Part shown: piece by piece, positions 46,018 to 58,625 of the stretch
Numbering within the stretch: the first letter of the stretch is position 1
How the letters are laid out: every line of letters begins with the position of its first letter
Source of the DNA: Paracoccaceae bacterium
Lineage (GTDB): Bacteria > Pseudomonadota > Alphaproteobacteria > Rhodobacterales > Rhodobacteraceae
Length of the DNA: 64,000 nt
NCBI GenBank assembly: GCA_024639125.1
Contig: JAHEJA010000010.1
Location: forward strand, 5,490-69,489
Direction of reading: 5' to 3'
Program-made: the position numbers and the translations under genes
Notes under the pieces: model-generated
Told to the model about the DNA's origin: nothing
Seen by the model: the letters and a program-made list of their open reading frames with translations, nothing else
Database searches by the model: none

Positions 46018-46344
46018 TTTATGATCCCTCTTTAGTTAAGGCGATAACACACGACGCAAACCCGTTATGGCATCAGCGCCGCAATTCAACACGCAAAATT
46101 GCGCTTCTGGGCGTATATAGGCAGCCTCTTTAAGGGCTGCAAGCTCTCTCGGGTGAAAGAACCGGAAAAATTGATGCGAATTAACCTAAAAATATGAGAA
46201 TTCACACTATTTGCGTGCGTTTTATTTCGAATTAATTCCTTTGGATTAGGGACCTACTCTACTTTCTAATTCTATCCTTCGGCTGGGTCTAAAACCTTTG
46301 GAGCTTTAACCGTAGCAGTAGGTAGCCATTAGGAGAAATTGAAT
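46018..46344. other. intergenic region between divergent dnaK and the di-heme peroxidase gene
   Basis: This 327-base stretch has no gene. The left third holds the dnaK leader and its RpoH-type promoter with an inverted repeat. The middle (about 46160-46260) is AT-rich. On the right, AGGAG (46331-46335) is the ribosome-binding site of the peroxidase gene; I see no convincing promoter for it. Confidence 0.6.
46112..46143 (-). promoter_or_regulatory. RpoH (sigma-32) heat-shock promoter of dnaK
   Basis: On the minus strand CTTG (46140-46143), an 18-base spacer and CCTATATACG (46112-46121) match the alphaproteobacterial RpoH consensus CTTG-N17/18-CYTATNTNNG at every fixed position. The spacer and box edges include the inverted repeat GCAGCC-N8-GGCTGC (46121-46140). 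Transcription would start about 85-90 bases upstream of the dnaK ATG. Confidence 0.82.
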
Positions 46345-47577
46345 ATGCCCGCCACTAAGCCAACCTTTTTGGCCATCATTTTTGTGGTTTTTGCGCCCCA
46401 CAGTTATGCGGACACATTTCCAGAAATACTTTCGGACTACTTTGAACCGCTTTCGGCGGCTCAACTTGACCTGTCAGACCCCACCTTGGTGGCACAGATC
46501 GAATTGGGGAAAACTCTTTATTTTGATACACGCTTGTCGGCTGATTGGGATTTATCTTGTGCCACTTGTCATGATATTTTCAACGGCGGGGATGATGGAT
46601 TGGCACTATCGGTCGGCCATCAAGGTCAGCTAGCTGAACGCAATGCCCCCACTGTGCTAAACGCTGTTTTTAATCGGGCACATTTTTGGGATGGTCGCGC
46701 CGCCACATTAGCAGATCAAGCCAAAGATATGATCCAATCGCCCGCTGAAATGGCCAGCACACCCAAACAGACCCTTGCAACGTTGAACGCCATTCCCTGG
46801 TACCGCGACCAATTCCAAGCTGCATTTCCGGATCAATCGGAACCTTTGACATTTGATAATTTGGCATTGGCAATAGAAGCGTTTGAAACCACGTTAATCA
46901 CGCCATCGCCATTCGACCAATTCCTAACCGGAAAACCGAGCATATTGGACCCTGACGCGCTCTTTGGCGCCTTCACGTTTTTAGACACGGGCTGTATTGT
47001 CTGTCACAACGGGATCAATATTGGCGGTGGATTTTTTGAACGGTTTGGCGCGGCAAACGCGTTGGACCCCAATGTCTTCTCGTCATCGGATCAGGGCCGT
47101 TTCAGAGTCACCCAAAATGAAAAGGACAAATCCGTATTCAAGGTCGCATCGCTTCGCAATGTCACCCTAACAGGACCGTATTTCCATAATGGGCGCGTGG
47201 ATGCTTTGGACGAAGCGATCAACATCATGGCTCAATCTCAACTGGGCAGCACATTGAGCCAAGCAGACACACAAAGCATTATTGCCTTTTTGACGTCTTT
47301 GGAAGGTCAGCCATTGGATATCGAGGTTCCCAATATGCCAGAATTAGATCCTATTTTGGGACCACTTCCCGCCCCCAAAAATTGGGTCATGCCTTCTCCT
47401 GTAAGCTTGCCAGAACGTAACGAAGACGGCGCCGAAACTATTTCAACAGACGACATACAAACAGAGCCAAAGCAAACAGCACCCTTTGAGCCAGTTATTC
47501 AAACAGAACCAGACGCGATTGCACCTATTGAAATTTTACCTGCTCTGCCGGAACCTAGGCAAGAAAGGGGTTTTTAA
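46345..47577 (+). CDS. di-heme cytochrome c peroxidase-like protein with extended acidic tail
   Basis: A 410-residue secreted protein of the CcpA/MauG superfamily. A signal peptide (1-22, ending SYA) precedes two c-type heme motifs, CATCH (72-76) and CIVCH (217-221). NAPTVLNAVFN and TGPYFHNGRVDALDEAI are typical of the family; the methionine in INIMAQ may be the distal ligand of the second heme. After about residue 330 there is a proline/glutamate/threonine-rich tail of about 80 residues not found in classical peroxidases. ATG 46345 is nine bases after AGGAG. Likely reduces hydrogen peroxide, or oxidises another substrate, in the periplasm. Confidence 0.85.
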   Translation: MPATKPTFLAIIFVVFAPHSYADTFPEILSDYFEPLSAAQLDLSDPTLVAQIELGKTLYFDTRLSADWDLSCATCHDIFNGGDDGLALSVGHQGQLAERNAPTVLNAVFNRAHFWDGRAATLADQAKDMIQSPAEMASTPKQTLATLNAIPWYRDQFQAAFPDQSEPLTFDNLALAIEAFETTLITPSPFDQFLTGKPSILDPDALFGAFTFLDTGCIVCHNGINIGGGFFERFGAANALDPNVFSSSDQGRFRVTQNEKDKSVFKVASLRNVTLTGPYFHNGRVDALDEAINIMAQSQLGSTLSQADTQSIIAFLTSLEGQPLDIEVPNMPELDPILGPLPAPKNWVMPSPVSLPERNEDGAETISTDDIQTEPKQTAPFEPVIQTEPDAIAPIEILPALPEPRQERGF

Positions 47578-48395
47578 CCCTTGGCTGACCAGCTCGAAGA
47601 GGCGCGTTTGCGCGTGTAATATTCGCCAACAAGACCGATCATCAGAAAAGCAACAGCAACTTCGGCAGCGTAGTAAGGATCAGAATTTCGGGGGTTATAA
47701 TTCACAAACGTAAAACCGCGGGCCTGGTCAATGACGTGAAACAATGGGTTCCAGTCAAACAAAACCAATTTGCTAGAGGGCAATGTGTTCGCCACGAACA
47801 TTTTGCCAGAAGCAATCATGTTCGCACGTTGATAGATCGTCGATAGAATGCCGACAAACGCAGGCGACCAAGGTTTTGCTGCCATAACCACCAAACCAAT
47901 GGCGCATCCTGACAACCAAGCAAGCAAGATCATTGCAATTGCGCCAATCGGATCATGGACCACAAAAGCGTTAAAGCCGATGTAATAGACGCCTAAAATG
48001 ACAATCATCGAAAAGAATTGTGTATAAAGCGAGCTTAATGCTGCCGATGAAATAGCAACCACCGTGTTCATCGGGGCGTGTTGCATCATTGGGGATGTTG
48101 GCCCCTCTGCCCCCGAGACAGCAGCAACAGCTTGGGTATGAACCATATAAAGAAAAATACCGCTCATCACATATAGAACAAAGTCCCCACGCAATGCAGA
48201 ACCGCGCATTCCCAAAATTTCGAACATGATCAGAAAAACCAAAACAAACATCAATGTTTGCATCATGTTCATAATCAACGACATAATAGGGGTTCGCTGC
48301 GATTTCCGAACGTGCCGTACAGTGGCATGATAGATAATTCGCATAAGATTCAGCGCATTTCCCAAGCCGGACTGTGGCTTTCTTACATGAAACAT
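47574..48395 (-). CDS. ABC-2 type polysaccharide export permease (KpsM/Wzm-like)
   Basis: A 273-residue membrane protein with about six hydrophobic segments (for example LIMNMMQTLMFVLVFLIMF and FVLYVMSGIFLYMV). PF01061-type exporters move capsular polysaccharide or O-antigen across the inner membrane together with an ATPase. The preferred start is ATG 48395 after AGGT; the frame is open for 34 more codons upstream without homology-like sequence. No KpsT/Wzt ATPase lies in this window. Its stop codon overlaps that of the peroxidase gene at a TTAA. It is divergent from cysQ and the glycan genes. Confidence 0.8.
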   Translation of the reverse strand: MFHVRKPQSGLGNALNLMRIIYHATVRHVRKSQRTPIMSLIMNMMQTLMFVLVFLIMFEILGMRGSALRGDFVLYVMSGIFLYMVHTQAVAAVSGAEGPTSPMMQHAPMNTVVAISSAALSSLYTQFFSMIVILGVYYIGFNAFVVHDPIGAIAMILLAWLSGCAIGLVVMAAKPWSPAFVGILSTIYQRANMIASGKMFVANTLPSSKLVLFDWNPLFHVIDQARGFTFVNYNPRNSDPYYAAEVAVAFLMIGLVGEYYTRKRASSSWSAKG

Positions 48396-48524
48396 TACTG
48401 ACCTAACCTTGCTTCCGCGACACTTTTCAACATGTGCTTGATAGTTTTTCAATATGGCATAATAAGGGCATTTAAAGCTAAAAAACAATGAATACATAAA
48501 TATTTCAACGAAAGTGAGCGTGTT

Positions 48525-49322
48525 TTGGATTATGAGAAACTCACACGGGTCATGCGCGACCTAGCCCTTGCAGGCGGTGACAAGATCATGGAAATTTATA
48601 ATTCTGATGATTTTGAAGTAAAAACCAAATCTGACAGCAGCCCAGTCACAGAAGCCGACGAAGCTGCGGACGAAGTAATCAGCGCGGGACTAAGGGCAGA
48701 ATTTCCAGAAATCATGATGGTCACCGAAGAACAAGCGCATTCACATTCACAGCAGGCCGATATATTTTTGATTGTTGATCCGCTCGACGGGACCAAGGAA
48801 TTCATCAATCGCCGCGGGGACTTTACCGTCAATATCGCCTTGGTTGAAAATGGGATTCCAACACGGGGCGTTGTCTATGCTCCGGCCAAAGATCGCATGT
48901 TCTTTACGCTAGCTGACGGTTCTAGCGTTGAAGAAGCCGGACCTTTCCAACAAGGTCACATCGGCGATACGCGCAAAATTTCGGTATCAACTCCGGATAA
49001 CGATGCACTGATCGTTGTCGCGTCAAAATCCCATCGCGATCAGGCCACGGATGATTACATCGCAAAATACAATGTCAAAGACATGACAAGCGCGGGGTCA
49101 TCGCTCAAGTTTTGTCTGATTGCTACTGGCGAAGCAGATCTCTATCCGCGCGTTGGGCGCACTATGGAATGGGACACGGCCGCAGGCCATGCCGTGCTAA
49201 ATGGCGCAGGCGGTCATGTTGTGCGCTTTGACGACTTAATGCCCTTGCGGTATGGCAAGGAAGGATACGCAAACCCATTTTTCATCGCCCATGCGACAGG
49301 TGTTTCCCTAAAGAACGCCTAA
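48525..49322 (+). CDS. cysQ: 3'(2'),5'-bisphosphate nucleotidase
   Basis: A 265-residue lithium-sensitive phosphatase of the inositol monophosphatase superfamily. Metal-binding motifs are visible: SSPVTEADEAAD, EEQ near residue 67, DPLDGTKEFI (about 85-94) and the late EWDTAAGHAVL. It converts PAP, left after PAPS-dependent sulfation or sulfate reduction, to AMP. The start is a TTG at 48525; no in-frame ATG gives a full N-terminus, since the first ATG is nine codons in. Position next to a sulfotransferase-containing glycan cluster suggests PAP clearance there. Confidence 0.92.
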   Translation: MDYEKLTRVMRDLALAGGDKIMEIYNSDDFEVKTKSDSSPVTEADEAADEVISAGLRAEFPEIMMVTEEQAHSHSQQADIFLIVDPLDGTKEFINRRGDFTVNIALVENGIPTRGVVYAPAKDRMFFTLADGSSVEEAGPFQQGHIGDTRKISVSTPDNDALIVVASKSHRDQATDDYIAKYNVKDMTSAGSSLKFCLIATGEADLYPRVGRTMEWDTAAGHAVLNGAGGHVVRFDDLMPLRYGKEGYANPFFIAHATGVSLKNA

Positions 49323-49345
49323 CAAGCCCAGCCATGTTGATACTA

Positions 49346-49370
49346 GGCAGGCTCATGATGTGAGCCTGCC
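49346..49370 (+). other. perfect 10-bp hairpin after cysQ
   Basis: GGCAGGCTCA (49346-49355), loop TGATG, TGAGCCTGCC (49361-49370). It lies 23 bases after the cysQ stop. There is no T-run on either side, so it is not a standard intrinsic terminator; it may stabilise the cysQ 3' end. Confidence 0.6.
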
Positions 49371-49475
49371 CACAAAGTTAGCACGTAAGTTTCCAAAATT
49401 TGTCATATTTCAAACACTTTTGAATATGAAACAGGAAGCAACAAAATTGTTAACGTTCAAAGTGGGGTATCGGAC

Positions 49476-50369
49476 ATGCGCAATAAAGTCACCAAAGCCA
49501 TCTTTCCAGTGGCGGGCCTAGGGACACGGTTCCTTCCTGCAACAAAATCAGTTCCCAAGGAAATCCTGACGCTGGTTGATCGTCCCTTGATCCAATACGC
49601 AATTGACGAAGCCCGCGCAGCTGGCATCAAGGAATTCATCTTTGTCACATCCCGTGGCAAGGGCGCATTAGAGGATTATTTTGACCATTCTCCTCAGCTA
49701 GAATCAGAGCTGCGGCGCAAAGGCAAAAAAGAGCTTCTAAAGACGCTTAAAGAAACAAATATGGACAGTGGCGCGATTGCCTATATCCGCCAGCACAAGG
49801 CCATGGGCTTGGGCCATGCGGTATGGTGCGCACGTCGTTTGATTGGGAACGAACCCTTTGCTGTGATCCTTCCTGATGATGTGATTGCTGCGGAAAAACC
49901 ATGTCTGAAACAAATGGTTGAAGCCTATGAGGAAACAGGCGGATCTATGGTTGCGGCAATGGAAGTCCCACATGACAAAACATCATCCTATGGAATCCTG
50001 GATGTTGAACAACAATTTGGCAACATGCTTCCTGTTCGGGGAATGGTTGAAAAACCCGCCCAAGGCACAGAACCATCGAACCTAGCTGTCATTGGACGCT
50101 ATATTCTAGCACCTTCCGTTTTAAATAATCTGAACAAGATCAAAGCCGGATCAGGTGGAGAAATCCAGCTAACGGATGCAATTGCGCAAGAAATCGCAGA
50201 AGGTCGCCGCGTAAATGGCCTTCGTTTTGATGGTCAACGTTTCGATTGTGGATCAAAGGCCGGTTTCCTTCAGGCAACTATTTCCTTTGCCCTCGCGCGA
50301 CATGATTTGCGTGATGAACTATTTGACTATATGAACAGCGTAGTCGCAATGGATCGTGCGGCGCAGTAG
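49476..50369 (+). CDS. galU: UTP-glucose-1-phosphate uridylyltransferase
   Basis: A 297-residue nucleotidyltransferase that makes UDP-glucose. VFPVAGLGTRFLPATKSVPKE-like start is seen as AGLGTRFLPATKSVPKE (about 13-29), with DRPLIQYAIDEA and VILPDDV. FDCGSKAGFLQA near the end matches the family. It is followed 15 bases later by galE, giving UDP-glucose and UDP-galactose for glycan assembly. The upstream 150 bases contain a hairpin and AT-rich sequence. Confidence 0.95.
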   Translation: MRNKVTKAIFPVAGLGTRFLPATKSVPKEILTLVDRPLIQYAIDEARAAGIKEFIFVTSRGKGALEDYFDHSPQLESELRRKGKKELLKTLKETNMDSGAIAYIRQHKAMGLGHAVWCARRLIGNEPFAVILPDDVIAAEKPCLKQMVEAYEETGGSMVAAMEVPHDKTSSYGILDVEQQFGNMLPVRGMVEKPAQGTEPSNLAVIGRYILAPSVLNNLNKIKAGSGGEIQLTDAIAQEIAEGRRVNGLRFDGQRFDCGSKAGFLQATISFALARHDLRDELFDYMNSVVAMDRAAQ

Positions 50370-50384
50370 GTTAAGGGGTACAAA

Positions 50385-51368
50385 ATGGCCAATGTTCTGG
50401 TGACCGGTGGTGCGGGCTATATTGGGTCGCATGCGTGTAAAGCGCTTAAATCAGCTGGGTTCACACCGGTAACATTTGACAACCTCTGTACTGGCTGGAA
50501 AGACGCTGTCAAATTTGGCCCCTTTGAACAAGGCGACCTATTGGATCGTGCGCGTTTGGACGGCGTCTTTGCCAAATATTCCCCCGTCGCCGTCATGCAT
50601 TTCGCCGCCCTAAGTCAAGTCGGCGAAAGCATGCAAAAGCCGGGAAAATATTGGCATAATAACGTCACAGGATCGCTAAACCTGATCGAAGCCACCATCG
50701 CTGCAGGCGTAAAACAATTCGTATTTTCATCGACTTGCGCAACCTATGGCGACCAAGACAATGTGGTTTTAGACGAAAATTCCTTGCAACACCCGATCAA
50801 TGCTTACGGCGCATCAAAGCGCGCTATCGAAGATATGCTCAAGGATTTCCAAGCCTCAGATGGGCTGGAACATGTGATCTTTCGGTATTTCAACGTCGCT
50901 GGTGCAGACCCAGACGCCGAAGTAGGTGAATTCCACCAACCCGAAACGCATTTGATTCCACTTATTCTGGATGCAATTGACGAAAAACGGGATGCGTTGA
51001 CCATATTTGGCACCGACTACGACACACCGGATGGCACCTGTATTCGCGACTATGTCCATGTATGCGATTTGGTGGATGCGCATGTTTTGGGCGTGAAATG
51101 GCTTCAGTCAAACAAAGGCAGCCGTATTTTTAACCTCGGCACAGGAAGCGGTTTTTCCGTGCGCGACGTTGTAAACCAAGCACATCACGTCACAAACAAA
51201 CCCGTCCCCATCGTCGAAGGTGACCGCCGCCCCGGTGACTGCACCAAGCTGGTTTCCGGATCCACCCGCGCAGAACAGGAATTGGGCTGGACACCAACCA
51301 GATCCAATATGAAACAGATGATTTTGGATGCATGGCGCTGGCATAACGCAGAAAAGTATAGCGAATAG
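50385..51368 (+). CDS. galE: UDP-glucose 4-epimerase
   Basis: A 327-residue extended SDR. NAD-binding GGAGYIGSHACKAL is at residues 8-21. The catalytic S/T-Y-K set is FSSTCATYG and INAYGASKRAIE, and RYFNVAGADPD and TRDYVHV-like IRDYVHVCDL follow. It interconverts UDP-glucose and UDP-galactose. A ribosome-binding site AAGGGG precedes the ATG. The pair galU-galE supplies sugar donors to the three glycosyltransferases downstream. Confidence 0.95.
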   Translation: MANVLVTGGAGYIGSHACKALKSAGFTPVTFDNLCTGWKDAVKFGPFEQGDLLDRARLDGVFAKYSPVAVMHFAALSQVGESMQKPGKYWHNNVTGSLNLIEATIAAGVKQFVFSSTCATYGDQDNVVLDENSLQHPINAYGASKRAIEDMLKDFQASDGLEHVIFRYFNVAGADPDAEVGEFHQPETHLIPLILDAIDEKRDALTIFGTDYDTPDGTCIRDYVHVCDLVDAHVLGVKWLQSNKGSRIFNLGTGSGFSVRDVVNQAHHVTNKPVPIVEGDRRPGDCTKLVSGSTRAEQELGWTPTRSNMKQMILDAWRWHNAEKYSE

Positions 51369-51394
51369 TCCCGACTTCGCTCTAACATCTTTTT

Positions 51395-52420
51395 ATGATT
51401 GCTCAGCTCGCCCATATAAAAACCGCCTATAAATTGCGTATGCGTCGTAGGCGACTTTTGCTTCGGGCTTGGCGCAAGCGAAAACAAATAAAACAGCATA
51501 GCTTCAAAGCACCCACTTTTGCGCCACAGGACGTTTTAGCGTTCACAACATTGCGCAACGAAGCGCATCGTTTGCCGTATTTCCTAAGCCATCACCGCGC
51601 TCTAGGCGTGACACATTTTTTTATTGTCGATAACAACAGCGATGATGGGTCGTTTGACTATATCATGGATCAACCCGATGTGTCCGTTTGGCGCACAGAG
51701 TCAAGCTATAAGCTTTCACGGTTTGGCATGGATTGGCTGACGTGGTTAATGATCTGTTATGGTCATGGCAAATGGTGCCTGACCCTGGATGCGGACGAAT
51801 TGTTCATTTACCCAAATTGGACAACACGGCCTTTGCCTGCTTTGATTGATTGGCTGGAACAAACGGGCGAACGGTCTTTTAGTGCAATGATGCTGGATCT
51901 TTATCCCAAAGGGAACGTCGGAGGGGTCGTCTATGATCCGTCACAATCCCCCCTTTCCATATTGGAATGGTTCGATCGGGGAAATTACACCCAGATCCGC
52001 AAACCTGACCTTCAAAATTTGTGGATACAAGGGGGGGTTCGGGCGCGTTGCTTTTTCGACCAAGAACCAGAGCGCGCGCCAACGATGGGGAAAATTCCGC
52101 TTGTGAAGTGGGATAGAAGATACACCTATGTGTCCTCGACACACTCCCTACTTCCCCGAATGCTAAATCACGTTTATGATGAAAACGGCGGTGAAAAAAC
52201 GAGTGGCATTTTGCTACATACAAAATTTTTGCCTTCGATCGTTAAGAAGTCTGAAGAAGAAAAAATTAGGCAGGAACATTTTGCAAATAGTACGTTGTAT
52301 GACAGTTATTACGACACACTTACCCAAGATCCTGACCTATGGTGTGAATATTCAACACGGCTGCAGAGTTGGAAGCAACTCGAAGCTTTGGGACTGATGT
52401 CCAAAGGGGGATGGGCGTGA
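51395..52420 (+). CDS. glycosyltransferase family 2-like protein, tandem copy 1
   Basis: A 341-residue protein of the Glyco_tranf_2_4 type (PF13704, GT-A fold). After a strongly basic N-terminus (RMRRRRLLLRAWRKRK) come TLRNEAHRLPYFLSHHRALG, VDNNSDDGS and the DxD-like metal site TLDADELF. It shares its whole layout with the next gene, including the ending LGLMSKGGWA. It should add a sugar to a surface glycan; the linkage is unknown. It lies 26 bases after galE without a strong ribosome-binding site. The stop overlaps the next start (GTGA). Confidence 0.85.
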   Translation: MIAQLAHIKTAYKLRMRRRRLLLRAWRKRKQIKQHSFKAPTFAPQDVLAFTTLRNEAHRLPYFLSHHRALGVTHFFIVDNNSDDGSFDYIMDQPDVSVWRTESSYKLSRFGMDWLTWLMICYGHGKWCLTLDADELFIYPNWTTRPLPALIDWLEQTGERSFSAMMLDLYPKGNVGGVVYDPSQSPLSILEWFDRGNYTQIRKPDLQNLWIQGGVRARCFFDQEPERAPTMGKIPLVKWDRRYTYVSSTHSLLPRMLNHVYDENGGEKTSGILLHTKFLPSIVKKSEEEKIRQEHFANSTLYDSYYDTLTQDPDLWCEYSTRLQSWKQLEALGLMSKGGWA

Positions 52421-53427
52421 AGCTTTGGCAATCTTACCGGCTTAGGCTACGGCGGCGGCGATGGCATATTCGCGCCTGGCGCAAGCGTCGTGAATTGTCG
52501 TGCATCTACGACAACACCGCTAAGATCGCTACCAAAGATGTAATCGTATTCTGCACTATTCGGAACGAAGATATCCGGCTTCCTTATTTTCTAGAGTATT
52601 ACCGCAATATTGGTGTGAACCATTTCATCTTTATCGACAATGGCAGCACAGATGACGGGCCCAATTTTCTAAAGCAACAACCGGACGTCTCAGTTTGGCA
52701 AACCGAAGCAAGTTACAAAGAGTCACGCTTTGGCGTGGATTGGTTGAACTATTTGCTTAGAAACTATGGCGATTCACATTGGTGCCTGGTCGTCGATCCT
52801 GATGAATTTTTTGTCTTTCCGTTTATGGACAATCGCCCAATCCAAGCATTAACCGACTGGCTGGATGCCTCGGCACATCGCTCCTTTAGCGCCATGCTTT
52901 TGGACATGTACCCCAAAGGTCCAATGCGTGAGCACGCCTATAAAAAGGGCCAAAATCCAATCGAAATCGCGCAATGGTTTGATGCGGGGAATTATTCCTA
53001 TGAGAAAAACCACCGCTTCGGTAATCTGTGGATTCAAGGTGGCCCGCGCATGCGTATGTTTTTTGCGGATGCGCCAAAATCAGCCCCTGCATTAAACAAG
53101 GTTCCTTTGGTGAAATGGTCAAAGCGCTACGCCTATGAAAGCTCGACCCATATGATTTTGCCGCGTGGACTGAACCTTGCCTATGAACAAAACGGAGGCG
53201 AGCGCGCAAGCGGCATTTTATTACATACCAAATTTCTGGACACATTTGCCGACAAAGCCGCCGAAGAAATGTCACGCAGCGAACACTATGCCAATAGCGC
53301 CGAATACAAGCGTTATGCCCAAGAATTAGAGGAAATGCCCGATCTTTGGCATAGGTGGTCAGAACAATATATAAACTGGCGACAGCTGGAAATTTTGGGG
53401 CTTATGTCCAAAGGAAACTGGGCATGA
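52417..53427 (+). CDS. glycosyltransferase family 2-like protein, tandem copy 2
   Basis: A 336-residue paralogue of the preceding protein: basic N-terminus (RLRRRRWHIRAWRKRR), CTIRNEDIRLPYFLEYYRNIG, IDNGSTDDGP, DxD-like VVDPDEFF, and ending LGLMSKGNWA. I place the start at the GTG at 52417, which overlaps the previous stop and has GGGGG six bases upstream; an ATG two codons earlier has no room for a ribosome-binding site. Its own last codons provide AAAGGAAA for the GT14 gene, which starts inside its stop (ATGA). Confidence 0.85.
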   Translation: MKLWQSYRLRLRRRRWHIRAWRKRRELSCIYDNTAKIATKDVIVFCTIRNEDIRLPYFLEYYRNIGVNHFIFIDNGSTDDGPNFLKQQPDVSVWQTEASYKESRFGVDWLNYLLRNYGDSHWCLVVDPDEFFVFPFMDNRPIQALTDWLDASAHRSFSAMLLDMYPKGPMREHAYKKGQNPIEIAQWFDAGNYSYEKNHRFGNLWIQGGPRMRMFFADAPKSAPALNKVPLVKWSKRYAYESSTHMILPRGLNLAYEQNGGERASGILLHTKFLDTFADKAAEEMSRSEHYANSAEYKRYAQELEEMPDLWHRWSEQYINWRQLEILGLMSKGNWA

Positions 53428-55139
53428 CACAAAAAGAAACCACAAAAATCGGCATCGTGATGTTGGTCCATGAATCCCTGAAACGGGCGGAACAAATTGC
53501 ACGCGTTTGGGCCGCTGCTCAATGCCCTGTGGTTATTCACGTTGATTCCTCGGTTTCGGATGACATCGTTGCGCGTATGAAATCAGACATGGCCGACGTT
53601 CCCCTGATTAATTTCTGTGACCGCTTCCGATGTGAATGGGGCAGCTGGGGATTGGTCGCCGCAACCCAAGCCGCCAGTGAAATGATGTTGGATCGCTATC
53701 CGGACATCGGCCATGTTTATCTATCATCTGGATCCTGCTTGCCCCTGCGCCCTGTCCAAGAGCTGATTGATTATTTGGATGCACGACCCAAGGTGGATTT
53801 CATCGAATCCGCGTCGCTCAAGGATGTGGATTGGACTGTGGGCGGCTTTGATCGCGAACGCTTTGAGCGGTATTTTCCTTTTTCATGGAAACGCCAACGC
53901 CGCTTGTTCGACTGGTTCATCCAAGTCCAACGCCGCCTGAACATCAAACGTACTATACCCGATGGCATTGTTCCGCATATGGGGTCACAGTGGTGGTGTC
54001 TTAGCACAACAACGCTAAAAGCAATCCTGAAGGCCCCCAATCGTGCGGAACTTGATACATATTTCAAAGGCGTTTGGATCCCCGATGAATGCTATTTCCA
54101 AACCATGGCTCGTAAATATTCAACGGCGCTTGAAAGCCGGTCTTTGACGCTTTCAAAATTCGACCACCAAGGTAAGCCGCATGTGTTTTATGATGACCAC
54201 TTGCAATTGCTTAAACGGTCGGATTGCTTTGTTGCCCGTAAAATTTGGCCCAAGGCAGACAAATTATATGATTACTTTCTAAATATAACAGTTGGTCCGG
54301 AAAAACGCGCAGAACCCAGTCCATCCAAGATTGATCGCATCTTTACCCGCGCGCACGAGCGCCGTGTTTATGGTCGGCAAGGGCTATATATGCAAAGCCG
54401 GTTTCCATGGGGCAACGCGCAACATGCGATCACAGCTGCACCTTATTGTGTGTTCCAAGGCTTTACCGAATTGTTCCAAAATTTTGAAAGCTGGGTGACT
54501 AAAATGCGCCCCGACACTCAGGTTCATGGGCATCTCTTTCATCCAGATCAGGTTGAATTTATCCAAGGGCAAACCGTATTTACCGGTGGATTAACCAATA
54601 GCGCCAAAATTCGCGATCGAAATCCCAAAGCTTTTCTGACCAGCTTGATCTGGAATACCCGCGGAACCAAACAAGTGTTTCAATATGGCCCAGGTGATAC
54701 ATCTGAAATCGGCAATGTTCTGGCAGAAGACCCAAATGCCTATATTGCGGTGATCTCTGGGGCTTGGGCAATTCCTTTGTTTCTATCTGGTCGGACTTTC
54801 AATTCCATCCGCAAAACGGCCGCCTTGTATCAACGCCAAGAAACAGAACACTTGCGAAAATTGCGGGCAACAAACACAAAGGCAAAAGTCCGCATTTGGA
54901 CCCTTGCTGATGCAGTGGATGCACCTGTGAATACACTTCAAGACATTTTGACCGACATGGGTTTTGAGTCAAACCATTTGACAGAATTGCCTGTCATGCG
55001 GGATCTGGACGGCTTTGTGGAATTCATTCAATCCCTTAAAAACGAAGGCATGCACCCTCATACTGTCGGGGATTTCCCGATGCCAAATCAAACCATTGCG
55101 ACACGCTCCAGCGCACAAAAACCATATGTGATTAAGTAA
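53424..55139 (+). CDS. GT14 (core-2/I-branching-like) glycosyltransferase with C-terminal extra domain
   Basis: A 571-residue protein. The N-terminal half (about 1-290) matches the GT14/Branch fold (PF02485) known for beta-1,6-N-acetylglucosaminyltransferases: GIVMLVHESLKRAEQIARVW, VIHVDSSVSDDIV, YLSSGSCLPLRPV, MGSQWWCLSTTTL and IPDECYFQTM. The C-terminal 270 residues resemble the DUF5927 domain attached to such proteins in Rhodobacterales. It likely adds a branch or backbone hexosamine. ATG 53424 overlaps the previous stop (ATGA); the longer frame upstream is inside the preceding gene. Confidence 0.85.
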   Translation: MTQKETTKIGIVMLVHESLKRAEQIARVWAAAQCPVVIHVDSSVSDDIVARMKSDMADVPLINFCDRFRCEWGSWGLVAATQAASEMMLDRYPDIGHVYLSSGSCLPLRPVQELIDYLDARPKVDFIESASLKDVDWTVGGFDRERFERYFPFSWKRQRRLFDWFIQVQRRLNIKRTIPDGIVPHMGSQWWCLSTTTLKAILKAPNRAELDTYFKGVWIPDECYFQTMARKYSTALESRSLTLSKFDHQGKPHVFYDDHLQLLKRSDCFVARKIWPKADKLYDYFLNITVGPEKRAEPSPSKIDRIFTRAHERRVYGRQGLYMQSRFPWGNAQHAITAAPYCVFQGFTELFQNFESWVTKMRPDTQVHGHLFHPDQVEFIQGQTVFTGGLTNSAKIRDRNPKAFLTSLIWNTRGTKQVFQYGPGDTSEIGNVLAEDPNAYIAVISGAWAIPLFLSGRTFNSIRKTAALYQRQETEHLRKLRATNTKAKVRIWTLADAVDAPVNTLQDILTDMGFESNHLTELPVMRDLDGFVEFIQSLKNEGMHPHTVGDFPMPNQTIATRSSAQKPYVIK

Positions 55140-55144
55140 GTTTC

Positions 55145-56563
55145 ATGAAAAACAAATTCAAATACTTTGTAATTTTAGCAGAAATGCGGACAGGGTCCAA
55201 TTTTTTGGAAAGCAACATCAACACGTATTCGTCGCTCAAAAGCTTTGGCGAAGCATTTAATCCTGCTTTTATTGGTTATCCAAACAAAACTGATGTGCTT
55301 GGGATCGACAAAGAAACAAGGGACCAAGACCCTGACAAGGTGATTGATGCCGTAATTGGATATGGCGACGGATTGGGCGGGTTTCGATATTTTCACGACC
55401 ACGATCCCCGCGTATTGGATCGCATCCTAGACGACGACCAATGTGCCAAGATTATCCTCACCCGCAACCCGGCTGAAAGCTATGTGTCTTGGAAAATTGC
55501 TGTTGCAACGGGACAATGGAAACTGACCAACGCCACACAGCGCAAAAAAGCACAAGCCCACTTCAACGCGACGGAATTTTCGACTTTCCTAGAAGATTTG
55601 CAAAGTTTTCAAGTGGCGGTTCTAAATCGACTGCAAAAATCGGGACAAACCGCATTTTACATCGCTTACGAAGACCTTCAGGATATTGATATACTGAATG
55701 GGCTTGCACGGTTTTTAGGCGTGGACGAAAAACTTGACTCATTGAACAAAAACCTCAAGCCACAGAACCCTGAACCTTTGTCTTCGAAAGTCGAAAATTT
55801 CGACCAAATGGAAAAAGCTCTGACTGATCTTGATGGGTTTAACCTCACTCGGACGCCAAATTTTGAACCACGTCGCAGCCCTGCCGTGCCTAGTTTTATT
55901 GCGACACCGAATGAAGGGTTGCTTTATATGCCTATTGCAAGCGGTCCGGAAACCTCTATCGCAACGTGGCTAAACACAGTCGATCCAGACGAATTGATCA
56001 CCGGGTTTTCGCAAAAGACGCTTAGACAATGGAAACGCAAACACAAAGCACATCGCAGCTTTACGGTTATTCGCCATCCACTTGAACGCGCCCATGCTGC
56101 GTTTTGTACAAAAATTCTGGCAACAGGGGACGGAAGCTTTCCTCATATCAAGTCCCAGCTTGAAGATCAGTACAAGCTGAAACTTGGCGCCGAGGATAAG
56201 CCATTAACTTTGGATCAACACAAGTCTGGATTCATCGGGTTTTTGAAATTTATCAAAGCCAACCTGAACGGCCAAACCGCAATCCGAGTTGATCCAAACT
56301 GGGCATCACAATTTGCCATAATCCAAGGCTTTGGCGAATTCTGCCTTCCTGATATGATCCTAAGAGAAGAAGAATTAGCCGTTTTCCTGCCTGCTATTGC
56401 GACACAAACAGGATCAAAAATAATCCCGGATTACAGCGATCATGAACCAACACCCCAAATCAAACTGGCCGACATCTATGATGACGACCTAGACTCCATC
56501 GCGCAGGATGCATACCAGCGCGACTATGTGATGTTTGGCTTCAAAAAATGGATACGACACTAA
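55145..56563 (+). CDS. double-domain sulfotransferase
   Basis: A 472-residue protein with two sulfotransferase-like halves. The N-terminal half has the PAPS 5'-phosphosulfate loop EMRTGSNFLES (13-23) and the 3'-phosphate motif TRNPAESYVSW with R107 and S115, as in Stf0/NodH-type enzymes. The C-terminal half has a weaker loop PIASGPETSIATWL (263-276) and VIRHPLERAHAAF, where R310 is kept but the conserved serine is alanine (A318). The first half is probably catalytic and the second degenerate or differently specific. It starts five bases after the GT14 gene and probably sulfates the same glycan. Confidence 0.82.
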   Translation: MKNKFKYFVILAEMRTGSNFLESNINTYSSLKSFGEAFNPAFIGYPNKTDVLGIDKETRDQDPDKVIDAVIGYGDGLGGFRYFHDHDPRVLDRILDDDQCAKIILTRNPAESYVSWKIAVATGQWKLTNATQRKKAQAHFNATEFSTFLEDLQSFQVAVLNRLQKSGQTAFYIAYEDLQDIDILNGLARFLGVDEKLDSLNKNLKPQNPEPLSSKVENFDQMEKALTDLDGFNLTRTPNFEPRRSPAVPSFIATPNEGLLYMPIASGPETSIATWLNTVDPDELITGFSQKTLRQWKRKHKAHRSFTVIRHPLERAHAAFCTKILATGDGSFPHIKSQLEDQYKLKLGAEDKPLTLDQHKSGFIGFLKFIKANLNGQTAIRVDPNWASQFAIIQGFGEFCLPDMILREEELAVFLPAIATQTGSKIIPDYSDHEPTPQIKLADIYDDDLDSIAQDAYQRDYVMFGFKKWIRH

Positions 56564-56567
56564 CGGC

Positions 56568-57032
56568 TTATGCCGCTTCTTCGCTTCGACCATCCGTCAA
56601 AATCGCATAGAGCGTTGTTGCATCGGGATTTGCACGCAATTTGTCACAAAACGCTTTGTCCCGCAAAGTACGAGATACCAATGCCAAGGCCTTTAGGTGA
56701 TCAACGCCAGCCGCTTCAGGAGCAAACAAGGCAAACACAATATCGACTGGCAAGTGATCAACAGCATTAAATTCGACTGGCTTTTCCAGCAAAACAAATA
56801 GGCCTTTGACTTCGCTTAGCCCTTCAATCCGCGCATGTGGCAATGCCACGCCGTGGCCGACACCGGTCGGCCCCAAACTTTCACGGTCAAGCAAAGCAGA
56901 CAATGTTGATGATTCCGGTAGTCCATGCGTGACATGCGCTATTTCAGCAATGTCGTGAAATAAACGTTTTTTGCTTGAGGCGGTAGAAATAACCTTTACC
57001 GCCTCTGGCTTAATGAGTTTTAACAATTCCAT
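56568..57032 (-). CDS. ptsN: nitrogen PTS EIIA component
   Basis: A 154-residue EIIA-Ntr protein. The phosphoacceptor is H66 in GHGVALPHARIEG. It receives phosphate from NPr/EI-Ntr and regulates potassium, nitrogen and other functions through protein contacts. It follows hpf by 42 bases on the minus strand, in the classical lptB-hpf-ptsN order, but without rpoN, which is often found there in other proteobacteria. It is convergent with the sulfotransferase gene, four bases apart. Confidence 0.94.
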   Translation of the reverse strand: MELLKLIKPEAVKVISTASSKKRLFHDIAEIAHVTHGLPESSTLSALLDRESLGPTGVGHGVALPHARIEGLSEVKGLFVLLEKPVEFNAVDHLPVDIVFALFAPEAAGVDHLKALALVSRTLRDKAFCDKLRANPDATTLYAILTDGRSEEAA

Positions 57033-57074
57033 TAAAGTGAAACTTTCTTGGAGTTGTGCCCACGTAATTCAAGG

Positions 57075-57638
57075 TTACGGCTCGATCCAGCCGATATTTC
57101 CATCGCTACGCTTGTACACAACATTAACGTTGTTTTTACCTTCGTTTCTAAACACGAGAAACTGCTCACCAGCTAACTCCATTTGCATAACGGCTTCTCC
57201 AACCGACAAAGTTGGAACCTTGGTTTCCATTTCAGCAATAATCAGGGGTTGAAGCGTGTCAGGCTCCGAATCCTCGTGTTCACTCTCTTGCGCGAGGATA
57301 TACGAGGAACCGATCAAAGTTTCAACTGGTTCGGCTCGATCTTTGTGATGATCCTTTAAACGGCGCTTGTAACGGCGAAGCTGCTTTTCCATTTTTTCAC
57401 AGCATCCGTCGAAAGCGGCATAGATTTCTGTTGCGTGCGCACGCGCCTGAGCGGTCAAGCCAGTGGACAAATGCACCACGGCCTCACAGACGAATTCATG
57501 CGCATCTTTCGAGAAAACGACATTCGCATCTGTCGGGCGTTCAGCATATTTGCCGACCGCTCCGCCCAATTCGGTCTTTACATGAGTTTGCAAAGCCTCA
57601 CCGATATCGATGTGTTTTCCGGAAATCTGATAACGCAT
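57075..57638 (-). CDS. hpf: long-form ribosome hibernation promoting factor
   Basis: A 187-residue protein. The N-terminal RaiA/HPF fold (1-105; MRYQISGKHIDIGEALQTHV) binds the decoding region of the 30S subunit; the C-terminal domain (about 130-185; PLIIAEMETKVPTLSVGEAV, FRNEGKNNVNVVYKR) dimerises to make 100S ribosomes. The long form alone is sufficient for ribosome dimerisation. It is preceded by 223 bases without an established gene, containing a possible short ORF and a TTGACA element, so it likely has its own promoter. Confidence 0.94.
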   Translation of the reverse strand: MRYQISGKHIDIGEALQTHVKTELGGAVGKYAERPTDANVVFSKDAHEFVCEAVVHLSTGLTAQARAHATEIYAAFDGCCEKMEKQLRRYKRRLKDHHKDRAEPVETLIGSSYILAQESEHEDSEPDTLQPLIIAEMETKVPTLSVGEAVMQMELAGEQFLVFRNEGKNNVNVVYKRSDGNIGWIEP

Positions 57639-57682
57639 ATTTATTCCTTTCTAAAGAAAGCGAACGGGAGTCTACGGCGCAA

Positions 57683-57826
57683 CTAAATCGCGCGGGCGTA
57701 AATCACGTCCGTTGATGGAAGCGACAGCTTTTTCAAAGGGTTAACCGTATCGATTTCGGTCAACTGAACCCAAGGGATCCATGTGCTGTCCCCTTCATTG
57801 AAGTCGAGACAAGGCCCTGATGTCAA
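57683..57826 (-). CDS. possible small ORF between lptB and hpf
   Basis: A 47-codon frame runs from a TTG to TAG on the minus strand. The product would contain DFNEGDSTWIPWVQLTEIDT and end in DVIYARAI, with a composition and codon use like real proteins here. There is no ATG or GTG at the front and no visible ribosome-binding site. The TTG overlaps a TTGACA that could instead be a -35 box for hpf. It is reported as a candidate only; it may also be a gene remnant. Confidence 0.25.
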   Translation of the reverse strand: MTSGPCLDFNEGDSTWIPWVQLTEIDTVNPLKKLSLPSTDVIYARAI

Positions 57827-57861
57827 TGCTTAGATGCAAAAATATACCAAATATAATTTTG

Positions 57862-58617
57862 TCAGCTTATCTTGAAATTCTCGCCAAGATACACGCGGCG
57901 GACGTTTTCATTGCGCACAACTTCCTCTGGGGAACCTGACATCAACACCGTTCCATCATGCAGGATATAAGCCCGGTCCACGATTTCCAAGGTTTCGCGC
58001 ACGTTGTGATCCGTGATCAAAACCCCAAGCCCACGCTTTTTCAAGTCAGACACAAGATTACGAATGTCACCCACCGAAATCGGATCAACGCCAGCAAAAG
58101 GTTCGTCTAACAACAAATATTTCGGGTTAGCCGCCAAGCAGCGTGCGATTTCGACGCGGCGACGTTCACCACCAGACAAGGCAATAGCAGGCGTGCGACG
58201 CAAGTGTTCTATCGTAAAATCAGATAGCAACTCTTCTAATCGTTCACGTCTTTTATGGCGATCTTTCTCAGAAATATCCAAAATAGAAGAAATGTTGTCC
58301 TCAACACTTAATCCGCGGAATATAGACATTTCCTGTGGAAGATATCCAATGCCAAGCTGGGCACGACGATACATGGGCAGCGCCGTGACATCACGCCCAT
58401 CCACCAAAACCTGACCACCTTCGGGGTTAACCAAGCCTGCGATAGAATAAAAGCTGGTCGTTTTACCCGATCCATTCGGACCAAGAAGCGCGACCACTTC
58501 GCCACGCTGCAAAGACATGCTTACATCACGAATAACAACCCGTTTTCGATAACTTTTACGAAGCCCCTTGATCACCAAGCCGGTCGTTTCATTTGATGTT
58601 ACCAATTCCGGTGTCAT
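57862..58617 (-). CDS. lptB: LPS export ABC transporter ATPase LptB
   Basis: A 251-residue ATPase of the LptB2FG complex that extracts LPS from the inner membrane. Walker A is LLGPNGSGKTT, the signature ALSGGERRRVEIARCLA and Walker B YLLLDEPFAGVDP, with GIGYLPQEMSIFRGL typical of LptB. Start codons GTG 58620 and ATG 58617 are adjacent; I prefer the ATG. It is downstream of lptC and lptA, nine bases from lptA. Confidence 0.95.
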   Translation of the reverse strand: MTPELVTSNETTGLVIKGLRKSYRKRVVIRDVSMSLQRGEVVALLGPNGSGKTTSFYSIAGLVNPEGGQVLVDGRDVTALPMYRRAQLGIGYLPQEMSIFRGLSVEDNISSILDISEKDRHKRRERLEELLSDFTIEHLRRTPAIALSGGERRRVEIARCLAANPKYLLLDEPFAGVDPISVGDIRNLVSDLKKRGLGVLITDHNVRETLEIVDRAYILHDGTVLMSGSPEEVVRNENVRRVYLGENFKIS

Positions 58618-58625
58618 CACTGCGC

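Follow-up and report, generated by a model that had tools for sequence, protein, structure and literature searches.

The question raised by positions 47574-56563 of the DNA studied here (64,000 nucleotides of contig JAHEJA010000010.1, the whole of which is called the window) is whether the genes found there act together to build, sulfate and export a surface polysaccharide. A preliminary description, made from the sequence itself, had proposed such a pathway, running from the supply of UDP-glucose and UDP-galactose through assembly, branching and sulfation to export, and all the genes that it listed (a permease, cysQ, galU, galE, three glycosyltransferases and a sulfotransferase) were recovered in place. 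We give about even credence to the notion that the locus builds a surface glycan, decorated with sulfate and exported by a Kps-type capsule machine, that is, one dependent on an ATP-binding cassette (ABC) transporter. From the earlier proposal, the gene order, the sulfotransferase motifs and the export route stand, while the argument drawn from CysQ and the implied rarity of the locus are weakened and galE is not constant, and the product itself we still infer.

The locus begins with a gene for a KpsM/VexB-like ABC-2 permease (47574-48497, reverse strand), which is divergent from cysQ (48525-49322), encoding a 3'(2'),5'-bisphosphate nucleotidase. From cysQ onward all genes of the locus lie on the forward strand: galU (49476-50369; UTP-glucose-1-phosphate uridylyltransferase), galE (50385-51368; UDP-glucose 4-epimerase), two paralogous GT2-type glycosyltransferases matching PF13704, GTa (51395-52420) and GTb (52417-53427), a GT14 glycosyltransferase of the C2GnT/xylosyltransferase fold (53424-55139; PF02485, Branch) that carries a C-terminal DUF5927 (54237-55136; PF19349), and the sulfotransferase (55145-56563; 472 residues). 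In profile searches CysQ, GalU and GalE each scored above the NCBIfam equivalog cut-off (TIGR01331, 265.2 bits against 228.8; TIGR01099, 335.4 against 326.8; and TIGR01179, 416.6 against 262.3, respectively). The tight coupling reported previously, with overlaps of four bases and a gap of five, is exact by coordinates: GTa and GTb overlap by GTGA at 52417-52420 (another possible GTb start is the ATG at 52411), GTb and GT14 overlap by ATGA at 53424-53427, and 5 bases separate GT14 from the sulfotransferase gene, with wider gaps between galU and galE (15 bases) and between galE and GTa (26 bases). The GT14 start was placed at 53424 (571 residues), replacing that of the longest open reading frame at 53355, and the permease probably starts at 48395, giving 273 residues, since the alignment with most relatives sets in only at about residue 20-35.

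The earlier proposal takes the sulfotransferase to be an enzyme dependent on 3'-phosphoadenosine-5'-phosphosulfate (PAPS). Its Pfam match was marginal and confined to the C-terminal half (PF03567, 23.1 against 22 bits, residues 292-466). For comparison, 44 loci of relatives were read, 40 chosen from sulfotransferase matches (favouring long contigs) and 4 from a GT14-protein search of named GTDB genomes, and 35 of them were aligned with the window protein (alignment A1, 36 sequences), omitting short, truncated and near-duplicate translations; alignments A2 (32 loci plus the window) and A3 (21 loci plus the window) had the same omissions. The sequences of A1 share 41-58% identity with the window protein. 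The loop R15-T16-G17-S18-N19 is invariant in all 36, as are R107, P109 and S115 of the 3' motif, which takes the form T-R-x-P...S. In the window protein these elements are the 5'-phosphosulfate-binding loop RTGSNFLE (residues 15-22; 55187-55210) and the 3'-phosphate-binding motif RNPAESYVS (residues 107-115; 55463-55489). The N-terminal domain matched by sequence a structure entitled "LPS sulfotransferase NodH" (PDB 9vki, E 6e-14), and the AlphaFold model of the protein (mean predicted local distance difference test score, pLDDT, 89.3; predicted template modelling score, pTM, 0.55) matched Stf0 (1tex_D) with a Z of 12.9 over 194 residues at 3.6 A, and 3rnl with a Z of 11.1. Sharing with NodH and Stf0 their fold as well as both PAPS-binding elements, the 5' loop and the 3' R...S motif, the N-terminal domain is predicted to be an intact PAPS sulfotransferase domain of this type, in agreement with the earlier claim.

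The enzyme differs from NodH and Stf0 in having an additional C-terminal, sulfotransferase-like domain (residues 252-472; 55898-56560) that, throughout the alignment of 36 sequences, has neither a conserved PAPS loop nor the 3'-motif serine. Of the 3' motif, this half keeps only an H-P..R core as invariant. PF03567 was matched in 19 of the 36 sequences, PF13469 in 12 and PF00685 in 8, the matched half being known for the window protein alone. Profiles of the two domains align over part of their length with scores of 34.3 and 32.5, compared with a maximum of 25.0 in 60 shuffles, and the structure matches cover residues 2-243 only. From these comparisons, we read the C-terminal domain as one of sulfotransferase fold that has lost the binding of PAPS.

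The extent to which the locus is conserved was assessed in 198 genomes taken as the window's own family, which is probably Rhodobacteraceae because the named relatives are a Rhodobacteraceae and an Alphaproteobacteria metagenome-assembled genome, Anianabacter salinae and Pseudoroseicyclus tamaricis. Matches were obtained for the sulfotransferase in 164 of these genomes, for the permease in 175 and for DUF5927 in 162. When only strong matches were considered (E below 1e-20 for the sulfotransferase or 1e-30 for the permease, with the absence in unlisted genomes inferred from the listed ones), sulfotransferase and permease occurred together in 158 genomes, the former alone in 2, the latter alone in 7 and neither in 31; the corresponding figures for sulfotransferase and DUF5927 were 158 with both, 2 with the sulfotransferase alone, 4 with DUF5927 alone and 34 with neither. 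All three were present in 156 of the 198 genomes and none of them in 31. Among the matches listed (150 for the sulfotransferase and 150 for the permease, from which the genomes with both were taken), permease and sulfotransferase lie 5.7-10.5 kb apart on one contig in 120 of 140 genomes, 0.11-0.15 Mb apart on one contig in 2 (G075 and G183), and on different contigs in 18, some of the assemblies being fragmented. This proximity exceeds chance.

Within the 44 loci, where the presence of the sulfotransferase is built into the counts because 40 were chosen for having it, GTb, GT14 and the sulfotransferase are contiguous in every case, permease, cysQ and galU lie upstream in 43, and ptsN, hpf and lptB lie downstream in 41. 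The order of genes proposed for testing across relatives thus largely held. The constant core is GTb-GT14-sulfotransferase, and the front part is variable: galE was matched within the locus in 26 of the 44, kdsB directly follows cysQ in 24, GTb is preceded by a GT4-type enzyme in 24 and by GTa in 19, and at least 13 have an extra GT2 between cysQ and galU. Such variation is as expected if the backbone or the side chain differs between genera. As regards the sugar supply, the presence of galU and galE in the window was confirmed, but a supply of UDP-galactose is not a constant feature. The possibility of a strain-specific island was ruled out, DUF5927 being present in 235 of the 244 genomes of an order sample; the locus is kept vertically, compact and near-universal in the family, which weakens the rarity that had been implied. 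In one genome (G075) it is split between GTa and GTb (loci L055 and L104). The locus of genome G037 (L105) is rearranged too: GTb is directly preceded by two weak matches that resemble ABC ATPases (31-34% to lptB), and the permease is on another contig, while the GT14 match of L043:11304-12994 and the GTb match of L070:10128-11360 each come in two pieces, through a frameshift, an assembly error or a real change.

A further clue to the place of sulfation was derived from two genomes, G171 and G178, in which the permease-to-GT14 part of the locus is complete and the sulfotransferase is missing. In these loci (L102 and L103) the matches to GT14 and ptsN are separated by 43 and 14 bases, and the best sulfotransferase match elsewhere in the genome is weak (E 1e-5 and 6e-9). 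This fits sulfation being a decoration, an optional last step. Both loci retain DUF5927 and, in addition, cysQ. It had been argued that PAPS-dependent sulfotransferases release 3'-phosphoadenosine-5'-phosphate, which CysQ hydrolyses, so that the chemistry fits one pathway; since cysQ is kept where the sulfotransferase has been lost, the linkage of the two genes is weakened as proof of sulfation and cysQ provides no evidence for it. Adenosine 5'-phosphosulfate kinase, needed for PAPS, is encoded in the genome itself, and no PAPS synthesis genes were found within the locus.

The remaining parts of an export machine had to be sought outside the locus. The permease had no Pfam match, its scores for VexB (43.5 bits against a cut-off of 297) and KpsM (33.6 against 300) amount to a resemblance below cut-off, and a search of its own genome returned only the window permease itself. 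About 12 kb past the window end, at C25:81431-82093, lies one good match of VexC/KpsT type, a gene for a KpsT-like ATPase of 220 residues, recognized at the level of homology only (VexC 106 bits against a cut-off of 313, with ABC_tran above cut-off). It overlaps a gene for a 542-residue KpsE-type protein (BexC/CtrB/KpsE; TIGR01010, 176 bits against 437.5), the pair spanning 81431-83696 of contig 25. On contig 46 of the same genome, KpsC (709 residues; PF05159, 260 bits in four stretches), a Wza/KpsD-type protein (408 residues; PF02563, 56.3 bits, over cut-off) and KpsS (436 residues; PF05159, 178.7 bits) are encoded by consecutive genes, and the neighbouring proteins that were scanned include neither a permease nor an ATPase. 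In Kps systems KpsC and KpsS serve the linker of 3-deoxy-D-manno-octulosonic acid. According to one report, secretion of a glycolipid is the task of KpsM and KpsT together with KpsE and KpsD, and the linker of this glycolipid requires KpsC and KpsS (PMC11041684). The simplest reading of these dispersed genes would be one split Kps machine, which bears out the export route suggested previously. Because export and synthesis genes are divided between contigs 25 and 46, the system is described as one that works like Kps, and it is not a classical kps cluster.

All these observations could be integrated in a model in which GalU and GalE would supply UDP-glucose and UDP-galactose, and GTa, GTb and GT14 would add the sugars, GT14 probably making a branch or linkage that later carries the sulfate. 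In the cytoplasm, the N-terminal domain of the sulfotransferase would sulfate the glycan with PAPS as donor, and the KpsM-like permease, together with the unlinked KpsT, KpsE and KpsD, would export the glycan attached to a lipid linker that KpsC and KpsS provide. In this scheme we infer that the glycosyltransferases feed the Kps exporter, that the glycan is the acceptor of the sulfate, which sugars it contains and what the degenerate domains do; both DUF5927 and the second half of the sulfotransferase are probably glycan-binding or docking modules, which may hold the growing chain or join GT14 to the sulfotransferase.

The GT14 enzyme itself is well recognized (PF02485, 57 bits against a cut-off of 23.4). 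The catalytic part of its model shares the fold of C2GnT-L (Z 27.4, 271 residues, 2.8 A) and of human xylosyltransferase 1 (Z 24.6, 270 residues, 3.4 A), the latter being the better match by sequence (E 4e-7, compared with 0.1 for C2GnT), and its donor and acceptor cannot be named from these matches. It differs from both in its fusion to DUF5927, a fusion that, in the genomes searched, was so far confined to this family. All the rows listed for the order sample mentioned above belong to the same family, as do the four genomes with DUF5927 among the 289 of a class sample, in which the 20 non-matching rows listed are from other families; the domain was found in 0 of 14 control genomes. PF19349 is thus a near-universal signature of the family and may serve as a marker.

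As to the nature of DUF5927, its profile aligned with that of the sulfotransferase N-terminal domain with an hhalign score of 36.7; 60 column shuffles gave at most 24.6, the reversed profile gave 23.5, and comparison of DUF5927 with 14 further profiles taken from these loci gave at most 18.9. The alignment pairs HGHLFxP...RDxNP of DUF5927 with HGExFNP...RDxDP of the N-terminal domain, and the order of strands and helices agrees when both models are read. Neither an RTGS-like loop nor an R...S motif was found in 22 aligned DUF5927 sequences. Several results count against its being a sulfotransferase domain: the reverse comparison is weaker (27.6, with 8.7% probability), neither a Pfam scan of 22 members nor a sequence search of the PDB returned a sulfotransferase, and the structure matches of the GT14-DUF5927 model span residues 3-297 only, that is, the GT14 part. 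On balance, profiles and models suggest that DUF5927 is a probable degenerate, PAPS-less sulfotransferase-fold module attached to GT14. It is conceivable, although rather unlikely, that the proteins form a glycosylation-sulfation complex for a family-defining glycan, in which GT14 and the sulfotransferase would each use a non-catalytic sulfotransferase-fold module to grip the chain or the partner.

Several findings weigh against a Kps-exported polysaccharide. The scores of KpsM, KpsT and KpsE all fall below the NCBIfam equivalog cut-offs; the export and synthesis genes do not form one cluster, the Kps parts being on other contigs or 20 kb from the locus, so that their link to its glycosyltransferases is putative; a second polysaccharide export system, which may offer another route, exists on contig 79, where a 599-residue Poly_export protein adjoins a Wzz/GNVR protein (L080:8545-11284, forward strand); no initiating enzyme or polymerase of known type was recognized in the locus; and the co-occurrence counts carry no correction for shared ancestry. 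To these must be added the retention of cysQ without a sulfotransferase and the neighbourhood of lipopolysaccharide (LPS) genes. The latter gives rise to the main rival, in which the glycan belongs to LPS, to its core or its O-chain, with sulfation like that of rhizobial LPS, and permease and cysQ are conserved neighbours from another system. In its favour, lptB is a neighbour in 41 of the 44 loci and kdsB is present in 24; no other good KdsB match was obtained in any of the 9 genomes searched, so that this kdsB serves LPS too (for which reason kdsB in relatives was dropped as proof of a capsule linked through 3-deoxy-D-manno-octulosonic acid), and the nearest solved structure of the sulfotransferase is the one titled as an LPS enzyme. 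We nevertheless regard this explanation as doubtful, given that the permease is of KpsM/VexB type and co-occurs with the sulfotransferase, that the genome encodes KpsC and KpsS, and that lptB-hpf-ptsN may be a mere housekeeping flank.

A narrower functional module is also conceivable, consisting of GTb, GT14 and the sulfotransferase alone, next to which permease, cysQ, galU and galE would be housekeeping genes conserved as neighbours by chance. The persistence of cysQ in the two sulfotransferase-less loci, the inconstancy of galE, the split of G075 and the separation of permease from sulfotransferase in G183 and in the 18 genomes that have them on different contigs all agree with it; the close spacing of these two genes in 120 of 140 genomes and their strongly correlated presence make it unlikely. 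Finally, the target of sulfotransferase and GT14 might be an oligosaccharide that is secreted, a glycan bound to protein or a short glycolipid, and not a polymer. NodH acts on lipo-oligosaccharides, according to the title of a work cited in PMC7902896, and Stf0 on trehalose, to judge from the title of its PDB entry; GT14 is closer in sequence to a human protein xylosyltransferase than to C2GnT, and a polymerase was not recognized in the locus. Set against this, the structural fit to C2GnT-L is at least as good, and a capsule-type permease lies in the conserved neighbourhood, so that we consider this option distinctly improbable. A Kps-exported, sulfated glycan therefore remains the explanation that we prefer.

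Sulfated capsules have precedents. One from an alphaproteobacterium is the K-antigen of Mesorhizobium loti, a sulfated capsular polysaccharide made with a different sulfotransferase. The closest parallel described is the sulfated capsule of Vibrio sp. KMM 8419, in which the structure and sulfate of the product were determined and kpsD, M, E, T and S accompany sulfotransferases (PMC11641403); it shares with the locus described here an ABC export of Kps type, a supply of UDP-glucose, and both glycosyltransferases and sulfotransferases. There the genes form a single large cluster, which also includes cysNDC for the synthesis of PAPS and genes for dTDP-rhamnose, whereas the present locus is compact, has its export genes split and no genes for PAPS synthesis, and includes the two-domain sulfotransferase and GT14-DUF5927. 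The accessible text of another report describes a sulfated capsule with kps genes and sulfotransferases in Cobetia marina KMM 1449 (PMC11766843). Within the same family, the capsule of Rhodobacter capsulatus that serves as receptor for its gene transfer agent RcGTA (rcc01081-01086, wza/wzb/wzc) is likewise a surface polysaccharide, but it is linked to export by wzc, wzb and wza, no sulfotransferase is named in the part of the source available, and it is strain-variable (PMC10218006), unlike the near-universal locus studied here. In the portion available of a mat metagenome study of sulfated polymers, Rhodobacterales are named only among the degraders (PMC9723792). No paper describing this locus was found in the open literature, most subscription journals being beyond the search, and none in that literature mentioned "DUF5927". 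While sulfated Kps capsules are already known from Vibrio, a split, family-wide Kps-type locus with a two-domain sulfotransferase and a GT14-DUF5927 protein appears to be new.

If the proposal is true, one of the most abundant groups of marine bacteria bears a sulfated surface glycan of its own that comes close to being a signature of the family, and Rhodobacteraceae, if this is indeed the family, would be producers, beyond consumers, of marine sulfated sugars. This would bear on surface attachment, on association with algae and on receptors for phages or gene transfer agents. The sulfotransferase would offer a one-gene genetic handle, with natural loss variants, on the role of the sulfate. 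DUF5927, a domain of unknown function, would receive a likely fold, and, were the rather unlikely complex considered above to exist, the employment of dead sulfotransferase domains as glycan-handling modules would be an otherwise undescribed use.

Some minor observations concern the surroundings of these genes. On contig 38, the gene for a third Capsule_synth protein (PF05159; 377 residues; L094:4508-5641, forward strand) is flanked by those for an EamA transporter and for a molybdate-binding protein, and a membrane protein of the Sulf_transp family (PF04143; L079:12040-13110, reverse strand) is encoded two genes away from KpsS. Scans for promoters and terminators remained at chance level (11 found, 12.7 expected, and 13 found, 12.4 expected, respectively). 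On its right, the conserved ptsN, hpf and lptB (56568-58620, reverse strand) mark the boundary and stand outside the proposed pathway. The left flank consists of dnaK and a gene for a MauG-like di-haem protein (46339-47577, forward strand), which converges on the permease gene, their stop codons overlapping by 4 bases.

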